Below, piece after piece: positions 1-64,000 of a DNA stretch of 64,000 bases. The notes beneath the pieces are model-generated. The model had not been told where the DNA came from, ran no database searches, and saw only the letters and a program-made list of their open reading frames with translations. This DNA comes from Solirubrum puertoriconensis (GTDB lineage: Bacteria; Bacteroidota; Bacteroidia; Cytophagales; Hymenobacteraceae), in contig NZ_LNAL01000003.1 of assembly GCF_001483135.1 (NCBI RefSeq), positions 702,906 through 766,905 of the forward strand. The letters are read 5' to 3'. The position numbers were made by a program, and so were the translations under genes. Each line of letters begins with the position of its first letter. Position 1 is the stretch's first letter.

Positions 1-1
1 A

Positions 2-460
2 AACGTACCGAAAACAGCTATCCGCGCCATGGTAGTAGGGTGGTTTGTTGTTGAAGGTGGTTTAGTTGTTAGGGATTATTTTGCGGAATACCCAAGCAGC
101 CGAATCCGTGAGGACTTTAACGTAGGCTTAAAAGAGGCATTCGATGAAGCAGAGCGCCTGCCGGGCGTGCAGCAAGTGCTGGTAACCACGAATATGCCAC
201 TGCCTTATGTTTATACGTTATTCTTTTCTAAATACCCGCCGGCCCGCTTTCAACAGGATAAGTCGTATGAGATAGTGAATGGTTTGTACGATGTTAAGCG
301 AGTTGGCAAGTTTGTATTCTCCGAAAGCATTCTTGAGCCGGGAAGAAACTTTGGTTACCTGATGCGCAAAAATCAGTTTCAGGACACGGACAAATGGCGC
401 CACGAACCTCTATTCGGCAACGATTATTGGGAGGTTGGCATCGTTCGGGTATTACCCTAG
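2..460 (+). CDS. C-terminal part of a membrane glycosyltransferase (PMT/ArnT-like), 5' end outside the window
   Basis: The frame is open from base 2, so the gene very likely begins upstream; the ATG at 29 is internal. The visible part starts with a hydrophobic stretch like a last membrane helix, then a soluble tail containing PYVYTLFFSKYPP and a NFGYLMRK segment. This order resembles the C-terminal periplasmic tail of GT39/GT83-type glycosyltransferases, which move a sugar from a lipid carrier to a lipid or protein in the periplasm. The catalytic DE motif and most membrane helices would lie outside the window, so the family call is inference from the tail only. It ends before a strong hairpin at 491-527. 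Confidence 0.5.
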   Translation, partial: NVPKTAIRAMVVGWFVVEGGLVVRDYFAEYPSSRIREDFNVGLKEAFDEAERLPGVQQVLVTTNMPLPYVYTLFFSKYPPARFQQDKSYEIVNGLYDVKRVGKFVFSESILEPGRNFGYLMRKNQFQDTDKWRHEPLFGNDYWEVGIVRVLP

Positions 461-490
461 ATTGCCTCTGATTGTTGCTGCTGTGGTAAT

Positions 491-527
491 GCGAAGGGCT
501 GCTTAGTTAAACTAAGCAGCCCTTCGC
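491..527. terminator. Hairpin between convergent genes
   Basis: A perfect 18-bp inverted repeat with a one-base loop (arms 491-508 and 510-527). No long T-run follows on either side, but its place between two converging genes fits a bidirectional terminator. Confidence 0.6.
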
Positions 528-606
528 ATAGCGCATAGCTAATAGGCCTGGGGCGTTATGGCCCATTGCTGCAAATGCACGCTCAGCAGGCTAAGGACGC
601 GGGGGG

Positions 607-1026
607 CTACAGCGTAGCTACTTGCTCGGGTTGGATGGCTACTTCGCGGGGCTTCTGCACAAGGTAGTAGTAGGCCAGTACTAGCAGCCCCAGCGTGAAC
701 GGAATAATGGCTAGGTGCTTGCCCGTAATCAGCCCGCCAATGAGTACTTCATCGAAATGAAAAAACTCGCTGATCATCCAGTAGGAGTTGGCCGAAATCC
801 AGAACACAATAGCCAGGTTGTGGGCCAATTCAGATTTTAAGTGGCGGGTGCGCCAGGCAATGATGATGGCAATGGCCAGCGTGGGAAAGATCATGCTAAT
901 TCCGAGAGCTTTCCAGATCATGCACCAACTCACGTCCTTGAGCAGCCAAAACACAATGTGCAGATTTTCTATGCGGCGGTAGGAGGCCGGTATGGCATAA
1001 ACTGGCTCGGGCGTGGTGTTTTCCAT
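607..1026 (-). CDS. Four-helix integral membrane protein, unknown function
   Basis: A 139-residue protein beginning MENTTPEPVY; the ATG at 1026 is chosen over a TTG four codons upstream. About four hydrophobic segments are visible (roughly residues 23-42, 43-60, 68-88 and 103-124), separated by short charged loops such as WRTRHLKSE. Helices 1 and 3 are rich in Trp and Tyr. The C-terminus is hydrophilic. I do not recognise a named family. It faces the preceding glycosyltransferase gene and is transcribed away from the metal-dependent hydrolase gene at 1188. Confidence 0.7.
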   Translation of the reverse strand: MENTTPEPVYAIPASYRRIENLHIVFWLLKDVSWCMIWKALGISMIFPTLAIAIIIAWRTRHLKSELAHNLAIVFWISANSYWMISEFFHFDEVLIGGLITGKHLAIIPFTLGLLVLAYYYLVQKPREVAIQPEQVATL

Positions 1027-1187
1027 GAGAATGAGCAATGCAGAAAAGGTAAAGTTACGTGCCTGCTTATATGCGGCGCCAGCGCGGTTTAGGCCCAGGT
1101 GCGCATTTTGTGACTTATGGCGCTGACAGGCATAAACAGAAGCCGTATTTGGCGAACTGCCGGGCTTCAGGTTTCTTCGCGACTACC

Positions 1188-1739
1188 ATGCCCACCATCT
1201 TCACCCACGCTGCGGTAGCGGCCGGCCTAGGTCGGGTGCTGCATGTGCGCCCGTTGCCAGCTCGCTTCTGGTGGCTTACGGCCCTGTGCGCCATCCTGCC
1301 CGATTTCGATGCCATTACCTTCAGGCTTGGCATACCGTACGAGAGCATGTGGGGGCACCGCGGCTTTACTCACTCCTTGGTATTTGCCTTACTGATTGGG
1401 CTGCTGATGGGCTACGCCGCGTGGCCGCGCACCCGCCCGGAGCCGCGCTGGGCTTTGGCTGTGTGGTTTGCCGTGGCCACGGCTTCGCATCCACTGCTCG
1501 ATATGCTTACCAACGGCGGCTTAGGGGTAGCATTGCTGGCGCCGTTCAGCAGCGAGCGGTACTTCCTTCCGTGGCGGCCGGTGCGCGTGTCGCCCATTGG
1601 GGCAGGGTTCTTTTCGATGCGGGGTGTGGCTACGCTGCTAAGCGAACTGCTTTGGCTGTGGCTGCCTACGCTAGTGGCGGTGCTGCTTACGGGCCCGCTG
1701 CGGAGCCGGCGAGTTGCTAAGGACACCACGCGCGCTTAA
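1188..1739 (+). CDS. Membrane-bound metal-dependent hydrolase, YdjM/DUF457 type
   Basis: The 183-residue product starts MPTIFTHAAVAAGLG; the frame is open further upstream, but this ATG gives the usual N-terminus of the family. The family signature is clear: LPDFD early, then GHRGFTHS with the conserved His/Thr/His, then a downstream SHPLLDMLTNGG motif; these residues are thought to bind metal. Several hydrophobic segments follow. DUF457 proteins are inner-membrane proteins often annotated as LexA-regulated hydrolases; their substrate is unknown. It lies near umuDC but in a separate transcription unit. Confidence 0.85.
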   Translation: MPTIFTHAAVAAGLGRVLHVRPLPARFWWLTALCAILPDFDAITFRLGIPYESMWGHRGFTHSLVFALLIGLLMGYAAWPRTRPEPRWALAVWFAVATASHPLLDMLTNGGLGVALLAPFSSERYFLPWRPVRVSPIGAGFFSMRGVATLLSELLWLWLPTLVAVLLTGPLRSRRVAKDTTRA

Positions 1740-62316: not shown

Positions 62317-62810
62317 GGAGAACTGTTGCCGATGCTATAGATGGAAGATTGCTACTTCGTATAGATACTATTGGCCAGTTACTTTATTGAAAGTTTAACT
62401 AAGACGAGAGTAAGTGAATAAGCGTGGCTGCAGAATAATAGGGCCTATCGACAGGTCTAGTGAGGTAGGCCTCTCAATCATAAAGTATCCGGCGACATTA
62501 AGAAGAGGCCAAACCTTGTTGTTGAACTGTGCAAGAGCTCAAACTCAACCAGCATCCTCACTTGAAGAACCTAGTACAATAACCGACAGCGCTCAACAGA
62601 CCCTTACAATCGAGCAGGCTGGACTTTGAAAAGGCCGGAAGCGGTTAGTCTTACCTATCGGCGATAACCTAGGCGGCTTTTATTGGTGCTGAAATTGGGA
62701 TATGCGGGAACATGATCGTTGACAGCTGTGTTGAACTATTCCGCGTAAGCTCGGATTAGTAAGGTGTTAGATGCGAAGAGTAAAAGTCCAGGTGAAATTA
62801 AATTACTATG
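62317..62810. other. Intergenic region before the rRNA promoters
   Basis: About 490 bases with no supported gene. A short GTG-start frame at 62414-62629 has no protein-like features. One CCTAGG near 62669. Confidence 0.4.
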
Positions 62811-62813
62811 GAA

Positions 62814-62845
62814 TTGTTCCAGTCTCGAGAGAGTTATTATCTTTG
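62814..62845 (+). promoter_or_regulatory. rRNA operon promoter P1
   Basis: TTG at 62814-62816, 21-base spacer, TATCTTTG at 62838-62845, matching TAnnTTTG. Confidence 0.7.
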
Positions 62846-62958
62846 CAACCCTGAACAAGGTAGACGGCCGGTTCAGCGTGGAAGCTAGCTTCTCTTCTAT
62901 ATAGGCCCACAATTGAAAATGCAGCAGGAATTAAGTTTAAAATAAATTTCTGCAAAGC

Positions 62959-62988
62959 TTGACAATTAGAAAAAGCTTATTACCTTTG
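62959..62988 (+). promoter_or_regulatory. rRNA operon promoter P2
   Basis: TTG at 62959-62961, 19-base spacer, TACCTTTG at 62981-62988, an exact match to TAnnTTTG. It is the closer promoter, about 300 bases before the 16S gene. Confidence 0.8.
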
Positions 62989-63286
62989 CACTCCCAATCA
63001 CAACCAGGGCGACTTGAAAATAAAAACTGCTGCTCTGAACTAATTGGACAAAACATATTGTTGCTACTAGTGTAATAGGCAATAGCAACAACACGGCTGC
63101 AGAGGTGGCCGCGACGCCGAGACGACAGGTTTCGGCCGACGTTCTTTGAAAGACTGGAAAGACAAAAAGGTAAGTGCGTTCTGCTTTCGAGCGGAACGCG
63201 GGCAAGCGTAAAAAGCACAGCTCGTTATAGACGAGTCGGATCAGCACTCGACACGGGCGTTGCTTCGGCAGCGCCGGCAAGTTTTT
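62989..63286 (+). other. rRNA operon leader
   Basis: Leader from P2 to 16S. It contains GTTCTTTGAAAGACTGGAA near 63140-63158, similar to a conserved leader element of Bacteroidota rRNA operons that may act in antitermination, and a GC-rich stem-like patch CGGGCGTTGC/GCAGCGCCGG near 63254-63277. Confidence 0.55.
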
Positions 63287-64000
63287 TTACAATGGAGAGT
63301 TTGATCCTGGCTCAGGATGAACGCTAGCGGCAGGCCTAATACATGCAAGTCGAACGGGCGCAGCAATGCGTCAGTGGCGCACGGGTGCGTAACGCGTAGG
63401 CAATCTGCCTACACCTGGGGGATAGCCCGCCGAAAGGTGGATTAATACCGCATGACACCGCGGGCCGGCATCGGCTGGCGGTTAAAGAATTTCGGGTGTA
63501 GATGAGCCTGCGTGCCATTAGCTAGTTGGCGGGGTAAGGGCCCACCAAGGCGACGATGGCTAGGGGAGCTGAGAGGCCGATCCCCCACACTGGCACTGAG
63601 ATACGGGCCAGACTCCTACGGGAGGCAGCAGTAGGGAATATTGGGCAATGGGAGCAATCCTGACCCAGCCATGCCGCGTGCCGGATGAAGGCCTTCTGGG
63701 TTGTAAACGGCTTTTGACCGGGAAGAAAAAGCCCCTGCGGGGGAAACCGACGGTACCGGTTGAATAAGCACCGGCTAACTCCGTGCCAGCAGCCGCGGTA
63801 ATACGGAGGGTGCGAGCGTTGTCCGGATTTATTGGGTTTAAAGGGTGCGTAGGCGGCCCCGCAAGTCCGTGGTGAAAGCCTCTTGCTCAACAAGAGAACT
63901 GCCATGGATACTACGGGGCTTGAGTCCAGACGAGGTTGGCGGAATGGACGGTGTAGCGGTGAAATGCATAGATACCGTCCAGAACCCCGATTGCGTAGGC
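63287..64000 (+). rRNA. 16S ribosomal RNA, 5' part (truncated by window end)
   Basis: Begins with AGAGTTTGATCCTGGCTCAG near 63296 and contains ACTCCTACGGGAGGCAGCAG and GTGCCAGCAGCCGCGGTAA. About 714 nt are visible, covering V1 to V4. Sequence pattern is Hymenobacter-like (Cytophagales). The start is placed from the usual distance before AGAGTTTGATC and is approximate. Confidence 0.97.

Follow-up and report, generated by a model that had tools for sequence, protein, structure and literature searches.

Iterated word in the window

The window analysed here, a stretch of 64,000 bases from Solirubrum puertoriconensis (contig NZ_LNAL01000003.1, G+C content 59.0%), carries 63 predicted genes, among them those for the beta subunit of succinyl-CoA ligase and for a RecQ-type helicase, and it is densely sown with the hexamer CCTAGG. 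Genes throughout are predictions of an in-house frame-composition script, and no annotation was used. An earlier note on this DNA had counted 84 copies of CCTAGG and put the chance expectation at about 20. An exact scan gives the same number of copies, and an order-0 Markov model expects 20.4. The note had asked for a comparison with Markov models, and the excess stands in it: orders 1, 2 and 3 expect 15.0, 13.4 and 18.9 copies, so that orders 0 to 3 together predict 13 to 20 against the 84 found. CCTAGG is also the top-ranked hexamer of the window by order-2 Markov score. A maximal-order (order 4) test, with 66 copies expected, was dropped as circular because CCTAG (108 copies) and CTAGG (110 copies) are mostly fragments of CCTAGG.

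The genome-wide excess that the note had proposed is present as well. The whole genome to which the window belongs (G000; 4,804,721 bases in 8 contigs) contains 6,212 copies in its 4.80 Mb, or 1.29 per kb, whereas GGATCC, which is CCTAGG read backwards, occurs 136 times. This density of 1,293 per Mb lies within the range of a highly iterated palindrome (HIP), about 500-2,500 per Mb and far above expectation. With 6,212 genome copies, CCTAGG is not avoided in the way that the target of a restriction-modification system would be.

Synonymous-codon shuffling of the 63 window genes (20 shuffles) left 7.6 copies of CCTAGG (standard deviation 2.5) against 57 in the real genes. The same procedure gave 29.8 expected versus 275 real copies in 264 kb of G000, 14.6 versus 149 in its congener G004 and 11.6 versus 136 in its congener G007, both of which are rich in the word, and 4.6 versus 4 in the low congener G001. 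Codon and amino-acid usage are refuted as the cause by these shuffles. CCTAGG is a genome-wide iterated word, a larger phenomenon than the note had stated.

An asymmetric octamer

The hexamer CCTAGG sits in the middle of an octamer, ACCTAGG[G/C], that is strand-asymmetric. Among 198 sampled sites of G007, an outward A stands on exactly one side of the hexamer at 188, on both sides at 4 and on neither at 6 (at least one in 192). The corresponding numbers are 196, 8 and 15 for 219 sites of G004, and 315, 20 and 47 for 382 sites of G000. The flank pairs are thus not independent in the high species (outward A, read as ACCTAGGN), and across 699 oriented sites the flank opposite the A is mostly G (57%) or C (35%). 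Intergenic sites show the same, with one A flank at 86 of 107 sites in G000, 65 of 70 in G004 and 57 of 62 in G007, so the reading frame is not the cause of the asymmetry. ACCTAGGG occurs 401 times in 584 kb of the three high species (687 per Mb) versus once in 438 kb of five low congeners (2 per Mb); the palindrome CCCTAGGG has 11 copies in the high trio (19 per Mb).

The oriented sites are balanced between the strands (151/164 in 264 kb of G000, 102/94 in 160 kb of G004 and 104/84 in 160 kb of G007). With roughly one asymmetric copy per kb, facing either way, the word matches in this respect the DNA uptake sequences (DUS) and uptake signal sequences (USS) of other bacteria. The earlier note had read the element as a palindrome, which applies to the hexamer core and not to the favoured octamer: 188 of the 198 G007 sites are A-flanked on exactly one side, and two further words of the family, TAGGCCA and CCTACCC, are non-palindromic. 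The HIP1-like genome-wide motif of the note therefore holds in its density, 1.29 per kb; the word is not simply a palindrome, and the part of the proposal that concerned methylation found no support (below).

Distribution in the Hymenobacteraceae

In the genus of the window's genome (g1, 8 genomes), three genomes carry 5,325-6,212 copies of CCTAGG and five carry 123-249. A gene tree of succinyl-CoA ligase joins the three high species in one clade with support 1.0, which is consistent with one gain of the word on the stem of that clade.

A survey of 204 genomes of the family found more than 5,000 copies of CCTAGG in nine (G000, G004, G007, G030, G036, G072, G088, G104 and G123), between 1,209 and 2,331 in four, and 888 or fewer in 191. 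The four intermediate genomes are exactly the four that are rich in TAGGCCA, counted on both strands (G041 7,212; G043 7,638; G129 4,871; G137 7,232; the next of the 204 genomes has 1,361). CCTACCC reaches 6,036-6,650 copies in seven genomes (G019, G034, G044, G073, G075, G096 and G098) and 1,660-4,625 in eight more (G047, G053, G061, G087, G099, G106, G126 and G127); as the next genome has 1,414, the set has no sharp lower limit and the inclusion of G061 is marginal. At that cut the three sets are disjoint, although disjointness alone could be chance as the sets are small. They comprise 28 genomes, namely 3 of the 8 in g1 and 25 of the 120 in another genus, g4; word genomes in the other four genera number 0 of 76. 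At 162 sampled sites, TAGGCCA is preceded by C in 61% and by G in 35%, and all these words hold CCTA followed by G or C, a common core CCTA[G/C]. Lineage dialects with a conserved core, as in DUS and USS, are therefore found here as CCTAGG-type words, TAGGCCA and CCTACCC. Within the Hymenobacteraceae at least three words are iterated genome-wide, each in its own set of genomes.

Samples of the CCTAGG set contained sub-words, CCCTAGGG in G072 and ACCTAGGT together with ACCTAGCT in G030, G036 and G123; in G088 and G104 CCTAGG is diffuse. This dialect survey omits the genomes whose first contig is shorter than 15 kb (G024, G061, G018, G111, G021, G038, G040 and G046), and a locus of G123 (L081, 1 copy in 20 kb) was omitted from the second survey of that genome. 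Three Hymenobacter loci around SucC, of about 21 kb each and among 80 loci listed, show TAGGCCA in H. wooponensis, CCTAGG in H. setariae and neither in H. rubidus. Among the papers listed in searches of the open-access literature, none concerns a CCTAGG word in Hymenobacter, most subscription journals being outside that literature.

Two side observations concern other palindromes of the family. GGGGCCCC, which lacks CCTA, has 15 copies versus 1.0 expected in 18.7 kb of G035 (L196) and is a possible fourth iterated word. GGATCC is near-absent in many g4 genomes (0-10 copies in 5-6 Mb, e.g. G113, G121, G023, G026, G082 and G084) and reaches up to 325 copies in others, an uneven avoidance that resembles restriction.

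Placement, gain and retention

About 70% of the sites lie inside genes, at 1.0-1.2 per kb versus 3.3-4.0 per kb between genes (about 3.5-fold). Most coding sites of the 264 kb of G000 (252 of 275) fall in the frame xxC CTA GGx, where a change of CTG or CTC to CTA is silent. Leucine in the context NNC-CTN-GGN is encoded by CTA in 72, 67 and 51% of cases in the trio versus 0-7% in the five low species, and the use of CTA outside this context is 4 to 9% in the trio. In the narrower context xAC-CTN-GGG, CTA reaches 92-96% in the trio, where the flanks counted may themselves be word-shaped. Pro-Arg is written as CCT AGG in 10-16% of cases in the trio versus 0.3-0.4% expected. Silent leucine choices in permissive contexts are nearly saturated.

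The word is also gained by more than one route. From G001 to G000, CCCAGG became CCTAGG in 14 of 68 cases, 7 times the expectation from single-base substitution (a transition), and CCGAGG did so in 16 of 108, 12 times the expectation (a transversion). The ratios for ten control palindromes in this test lay between 0 and 1.3, and the one-mismatch words other than CCCAGG, CCGAGG, CCAAGG and CGTAGG had 4-8 cases each. The ortholog maps exclude BLAST matches under 300 columns. Intergenic alignments (41 and 45 sites) show 75-95% agreement in the six columns of the core and 62-87% in those adjoining.

Copies are spaced more evenly than class-matched simulations predict, with coefficients of variation of 0.91, 0.86 and 0.86 in the trio versus 1.02 simulated and with fewer gaps under 100 bp (39 versus 57, 15 versus 32 and 16 versus 27). 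CCTAGG acts like an attractor, being reached in excess through one transition and one transversion, filling the places that permit it and lying evenly along the DNA on either strand. Terminator hairpins were considered as a separate cause and rejected, because stems of 6 or more in convergent gaps were found at 15 of 38 sites and at 53 of 138 random places, which is no difference.

Copies and neighbouring features of the window

Within the window, 57 of the 84 copies lie in predicted genes (51 in the frame xxC CTA GGx and 6 as CCT AGG) and 27 are intergenic or at gene ends, the spread over both kinds of DNA that the note had described. Table 1 lists the copies and the sites compared between species. 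Stop codons are overlapped by 23 of the 382 sites in the 264 kb of G000.

Table 1. Copies of CCTAGG and related features of the window (positions in the 64,000-base stretch; concatenate, the 264 kb of G000)
Feature	Position	Strand	Context	Source or comparison
CCTAGG copies 1-22, first bases	1226 1752 2808 2961 3141 3577 3840 4301 4547 4762 5462 5648 6809 7246 9702 10810 11216 11714 14151 14277 15615 15689			exact scan
CCTAGG copies 23-44, first bases	16540 17399 17939 18106 18847 18921 19093 23209 23713 24421 25286 25863 26172 26531 27051 27068 27197 27554 28467 28991 29275 30281			exact scan
CCTAGG copies 45-66, first bases	31214 31391 33495 33511 33560 34421 35783 36297 37022 37446 38451 39356 40236 40367 40603 40900 42587 43020 43709 44369 44698 45357			exact scan
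CCTAGG copies 67-84, first bases	45516 48644 48782 49087 49280 50069 52022 52565 54008 54167 54488 55130 56135 56524 57618 58371 61455 62668			exact scan
CCTAGG	2808..2813		TAG is the stop codon of predicted gene 2330-2812	CCTAGC in G004; retained in G007
CCTAGG	34421..34426		overlaps the stop codon of predicted minus-strand gene 34422-35264	retained in G004 and G007; three aligned low species carry words ending TCGG (concatenate position 234420)
CCTAGG	37446..37451		intergenic	alignment: retained in G004 and G007 despite diverged left-hand bases (concatenate position 237445)
CCTAGG	45516..45521		intergenic	in 3 of 3 high species and 0 of 4 aligned low species (concatenate position 245515)
CCTAGG	48644..48649		TAG is the stop codon of RecQ-type helicase gene 46723-48648	retained in G007; one base off in G004
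CCTAGG	49087..49092		intergenic	retained in G004; CCCAGG in G007 (concatenate position 249086)
Succinyl-CoA ligase beta subunit gene	43030..44313	-	anchor for the eight-species comparison and the gene tree	Pfam

Long stretches free of CCTAGG, which the note had singled out, need no special cause, because the 264 kb contain 4 gaps of more than 3 kb where 4.9 are expected at random. Most of the longest such stretch in the window (19094-23208) is covered by the gene of a surface-type protein of 1,117 amino acids with PKD and immunoglobulin-like domains and a type IX secretion tail (18939-22292). Elsewhere in the window, an open reading frame of 901 amino acids (52033-54738) holds four C-terminal and two N-terminal stretches of D-Ala-D-Ala ligase, as if it were a tandem fusion of two ligases.

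Search for a cognate methyltransferase

Whole-genome profile searches with five Pfam families (PF00145, PF01555, PF02384, PF02086 and PF07669) revealed no methyltransferase shared by all the high genomes searched. Of the nine high genomes, 2 have PF00145 and 4 have PF01555. In genus g1, PF02384 and PF07669 each match 7 of the 8 genomes, none of the matches being in G000, and PF02086 matches 2, both low. G000 thus has no match (E <= 0.001) to PF00145, PF02384, PF02086 or PF07669; it has one PF01555 gene, on contig C4, and G004 is without a PF01555 match. This PF01555 methyltransferase gene of G000 (L012, 300 amino acids) lies in a stretch with one CCTAGG in 3.7 kb.

The weak PF07669 matches in G004, G007, G002, G003 and G005 belong to one family of MmeI-like type IIG enzymes, an assignment based on PF20473 in the three scanned, on similarity for G002 and G005, and on type IIG as the best PADLOC model in the two scanned. 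As it is present in G004 and G007, this enzyme appeared at first a plausible cognate, and it was rejected because the gene is missing at the syntenic locus of G000: the flanks are 4.0 kb apart in G004 (L253 6476-9691) and 447 bp apart in G000 (C3 490979-491426). For PF20473, the check in G000 covered this syntenic locus. The recognition region (residues 660-880, limits set here) has 56% identity between G004 and G007, versus 90-98% for four other regions, and these two genomes carry the same word; the enzyme is also found in three low species. A link to methylation through a matching methyltransferase, as the note had suggested, thus finds no support at either level: the five families contain none common to the high genomes, and the enzyme of the sixth is missing at the G000 locus. 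A methylation origin of the word is not supported in the five families searched or at the G000 locus of the sixth. Word iteration is here set apart from palindromes and, within the reach of the tests, from methylation too.

Possible function

We tentatively favour the reading that the word acts as a self-DNA label, which would be read by a sequence-specific protein during the uptake of kin DNA, in the manner of the DUS and independently of pili and of methylation. Cells would take up and recombine DNA that carries the word more often than DNA that lacks it, and copies would spread. Alleles that complete the word would be favoured, a new dialect would begin with a change of the reader protein, and words would decay once the system was lost, a possible origin of the partly filled genomes. 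We favour this reading because a drive by selective uptake and recombination would give the attractor pattern, and because dialects with a fixed core are closest to the DUS of Neisseria. The wider proposal, that the Hymenobacteraceae carry a pilus-free system of DNA self-recognition with dialects, in which a putative reader of the CCTA[G/C] core drove thousands of copies of at least three words, is possible and somewhat more doubtful. It would be a DUS-like system outside the Pasteurellaceae and Neisseriaceae and, to our knowledge, the first in the Bacteroidota with a well-defined word. As for precedents, an excerpt of PMC8459023 describes Riemerella as competent and transformable without pilus homologues, and part of PMC7965970 reports a preference of Riemerella columbina for its own DNA in uptake. 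The k-mers proposed there for Riemerella are A-rich and unlike the words of the Hymenobacteraceae (PMC7965970, in the same part).

Several results speak against a self-DNA label. The ATPase family of type II secretion systems and type IV pili, PF00437, was found in 0 of 26 genomes, 13 with CCTAGG or TAGGCCA and 13 without; no CCTACCC genome was among the 26, and the control genomes matched in 14 of 14 cases (13 over the cut-off). Two routes to the word are not raised, CCAAGG to CCTAGG (0 of 65, with 0.7 expected) and CGTAGG to CCTAGG (1 of 50, ratio 0.8), and one-mismatch words are barely depleted, the observed-to-expected ratios being 0.99 versus 1.15 for CCCAGG and 1.23 versus 1.32 for CCGAGG. 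Conservation is moderate: G000 sites are retained at 71% in G004 and 65% in G007 (nine control palindromes, 20-75% and 11-63%), and 98 of 232 positions (42%) are common to all three high species versus 15-42% for eight control palindromes; copies are therefore still being gained and lost. Inverted pairs closer than 30 bp, typical of neisserial terminators, number only 2, 1 and 1 in the trio. The CCTAGG-type words of g4 vary among genomes, and some are palindromes (CCCTAGGG in G072, ACCTAGGT in G030).

Two candidate causes were rejected on the same data. Uptake through a canonical type IV pilus finds no PF00437 ATPase in the 26 genomes, and restriction avoidance of near-matches does not agree with their near-absent depletion.

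The main rival to a self-DNA label, which we regard as unlikely, is a methylation-independent system of sequence-specific repair or nicking, such as strand discrimination or a Vsr-like nuclease, to which sites would be useful about once per kb or which would convert near-matches into the word. It would account for the under-dispersed spacing, for the rise of one transition and one transversion route alike and for the near-saturation of permissive contexts; however, it has no candidate gene, and the change of word between lineages would need repeated changes of the repair enzyme.

We consider it decidedly unlikely that the word is made, as in Elhai's model for HIP1, by a cognate DNA methyltransferase together with methyl-directed mismatch repair. 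The density is HIP1-like (1.29 per kb), the common core holds an adenine and cytosines open to methylation, and the alternate HIPs of cyanobacteria are likewise sporadic, each with a putative cognate methyltransferase according to a portion of PMC4390886. Against this stand the five families searched, among which no enzyme is common to the high genomes, the MmeI-like enzyme with its missing G000 gene, divergent recognition region and presence in three low species, and the non-palindromic words of two dialects.

To much the same degree we doubt a Chi-like octamer that would regulate a recombination nuclease of the AddAB or RecBCD type. A short, asymmetric, lineage-specific word over-represented in the core genome would suit it, but the orientations are balanced in the three stretches of 160-264 kb (151/164, 102/94 and 104/84), a polarity test restricted to these stretches, with the origin unmapped and with a sign of GC skew that is constant in G000 and mostly so in the others. 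Chi sites also have a far lower density than the word of the Hymenobacteraceae.

It is also improbable that the copies are sites bound by an abundant protein of the nucleoid, or one that organises the chromosome, differing from lineage to lineage. Even spacing, both orientations and intergenic enrichment agree with such sites, but the analysis points to no protein, and chromosome-organising sites are far fewer than the copies of CCTAGG. That codon usage, amino-acid composition or a mutation bias gave rise to the word incidentally is hardly conceivable: such an origin would explain why 252 of 275 coding sites share one frame with silent leucine choices, but not the excess over synonymous shuffles in the window and the 264 kb, the intergenic density above the coding density, or the preference for the rare codons CTA and AGG in the word context only.

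Significance

What HIP1 does and how dialects of uptake sequences arise are questions still without an answer, and work on either is hampered by words that whole clades have in common. In genus g1 the word occurs in 3 of the 8 species, which form one clade in the gene tree, and other lineages have other words, some in graded numbers. How such words are gained, fill their permitted sites and decay might therefore be followed in parallel, and the genes of close relatives that have or lack a word might be compared. Should uptake prove to be the right reading, the words would be the DNA-side counterpart of a pilus-free machine of the kind suggested for Riemerella.

Comparison with known systems

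Chi sites are species-specific asymmetric words that are over-represented in genomes. The word described here differs from them in having no strand polarity in the stretches examined and a much higher density. The USS of Pasteurellaceae marks self DNA at about one copy per kb. The word of the Hymenobacteraceae resembles it in density and in having most copies within genes. For Haemophilus influenzae, a section of PMC1939737 places 65% of USS copies inside genes, and a section of PMC7965970 has uptake proceed via type IV pili; unlike there, no type IV pilus ATPase was found in the 26 genomes. Uptake words in general are more frequent in non-coding DNA than expected and show no orientation bias, as stated in a section of PMC1939737.

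HIP1 and the alternate HIPs of cyanobacteria are GC-rich words at 1,000-2,000 per Mb that are sporadically replaced in relatives, as part of PMC4390886 describes. CCTAGG is like them in being a genome-wide, GC-rich iterated word with other words in related genomes, and unlike HIP1 in being part of an asymmetric octamer, in having non-palindromic counterparts elsewhere and in lacking a common methyltransferase in the families searched.

The DUS of Neisseria comprises eight dialects with a common CTG core, at one per 400-1,100 bp and 2,000-6,000 copies (a passage of PMC7371117), and lies mostly between genes (a passage of PMC2397512). The present words differ from it in that no PF00437 was found in the 26 genomes, in their length of 7-8 bases and their core CCTA[G/C], and in having about 70% of the sites of the trio inside genes and few close inverted pairs. 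Like the DUS of the Neisseriaceae, they are short asymmetric words of similar density and copy number, with no orientation bias in the stretches of the trio and with lineage dialects built on a conserved core.

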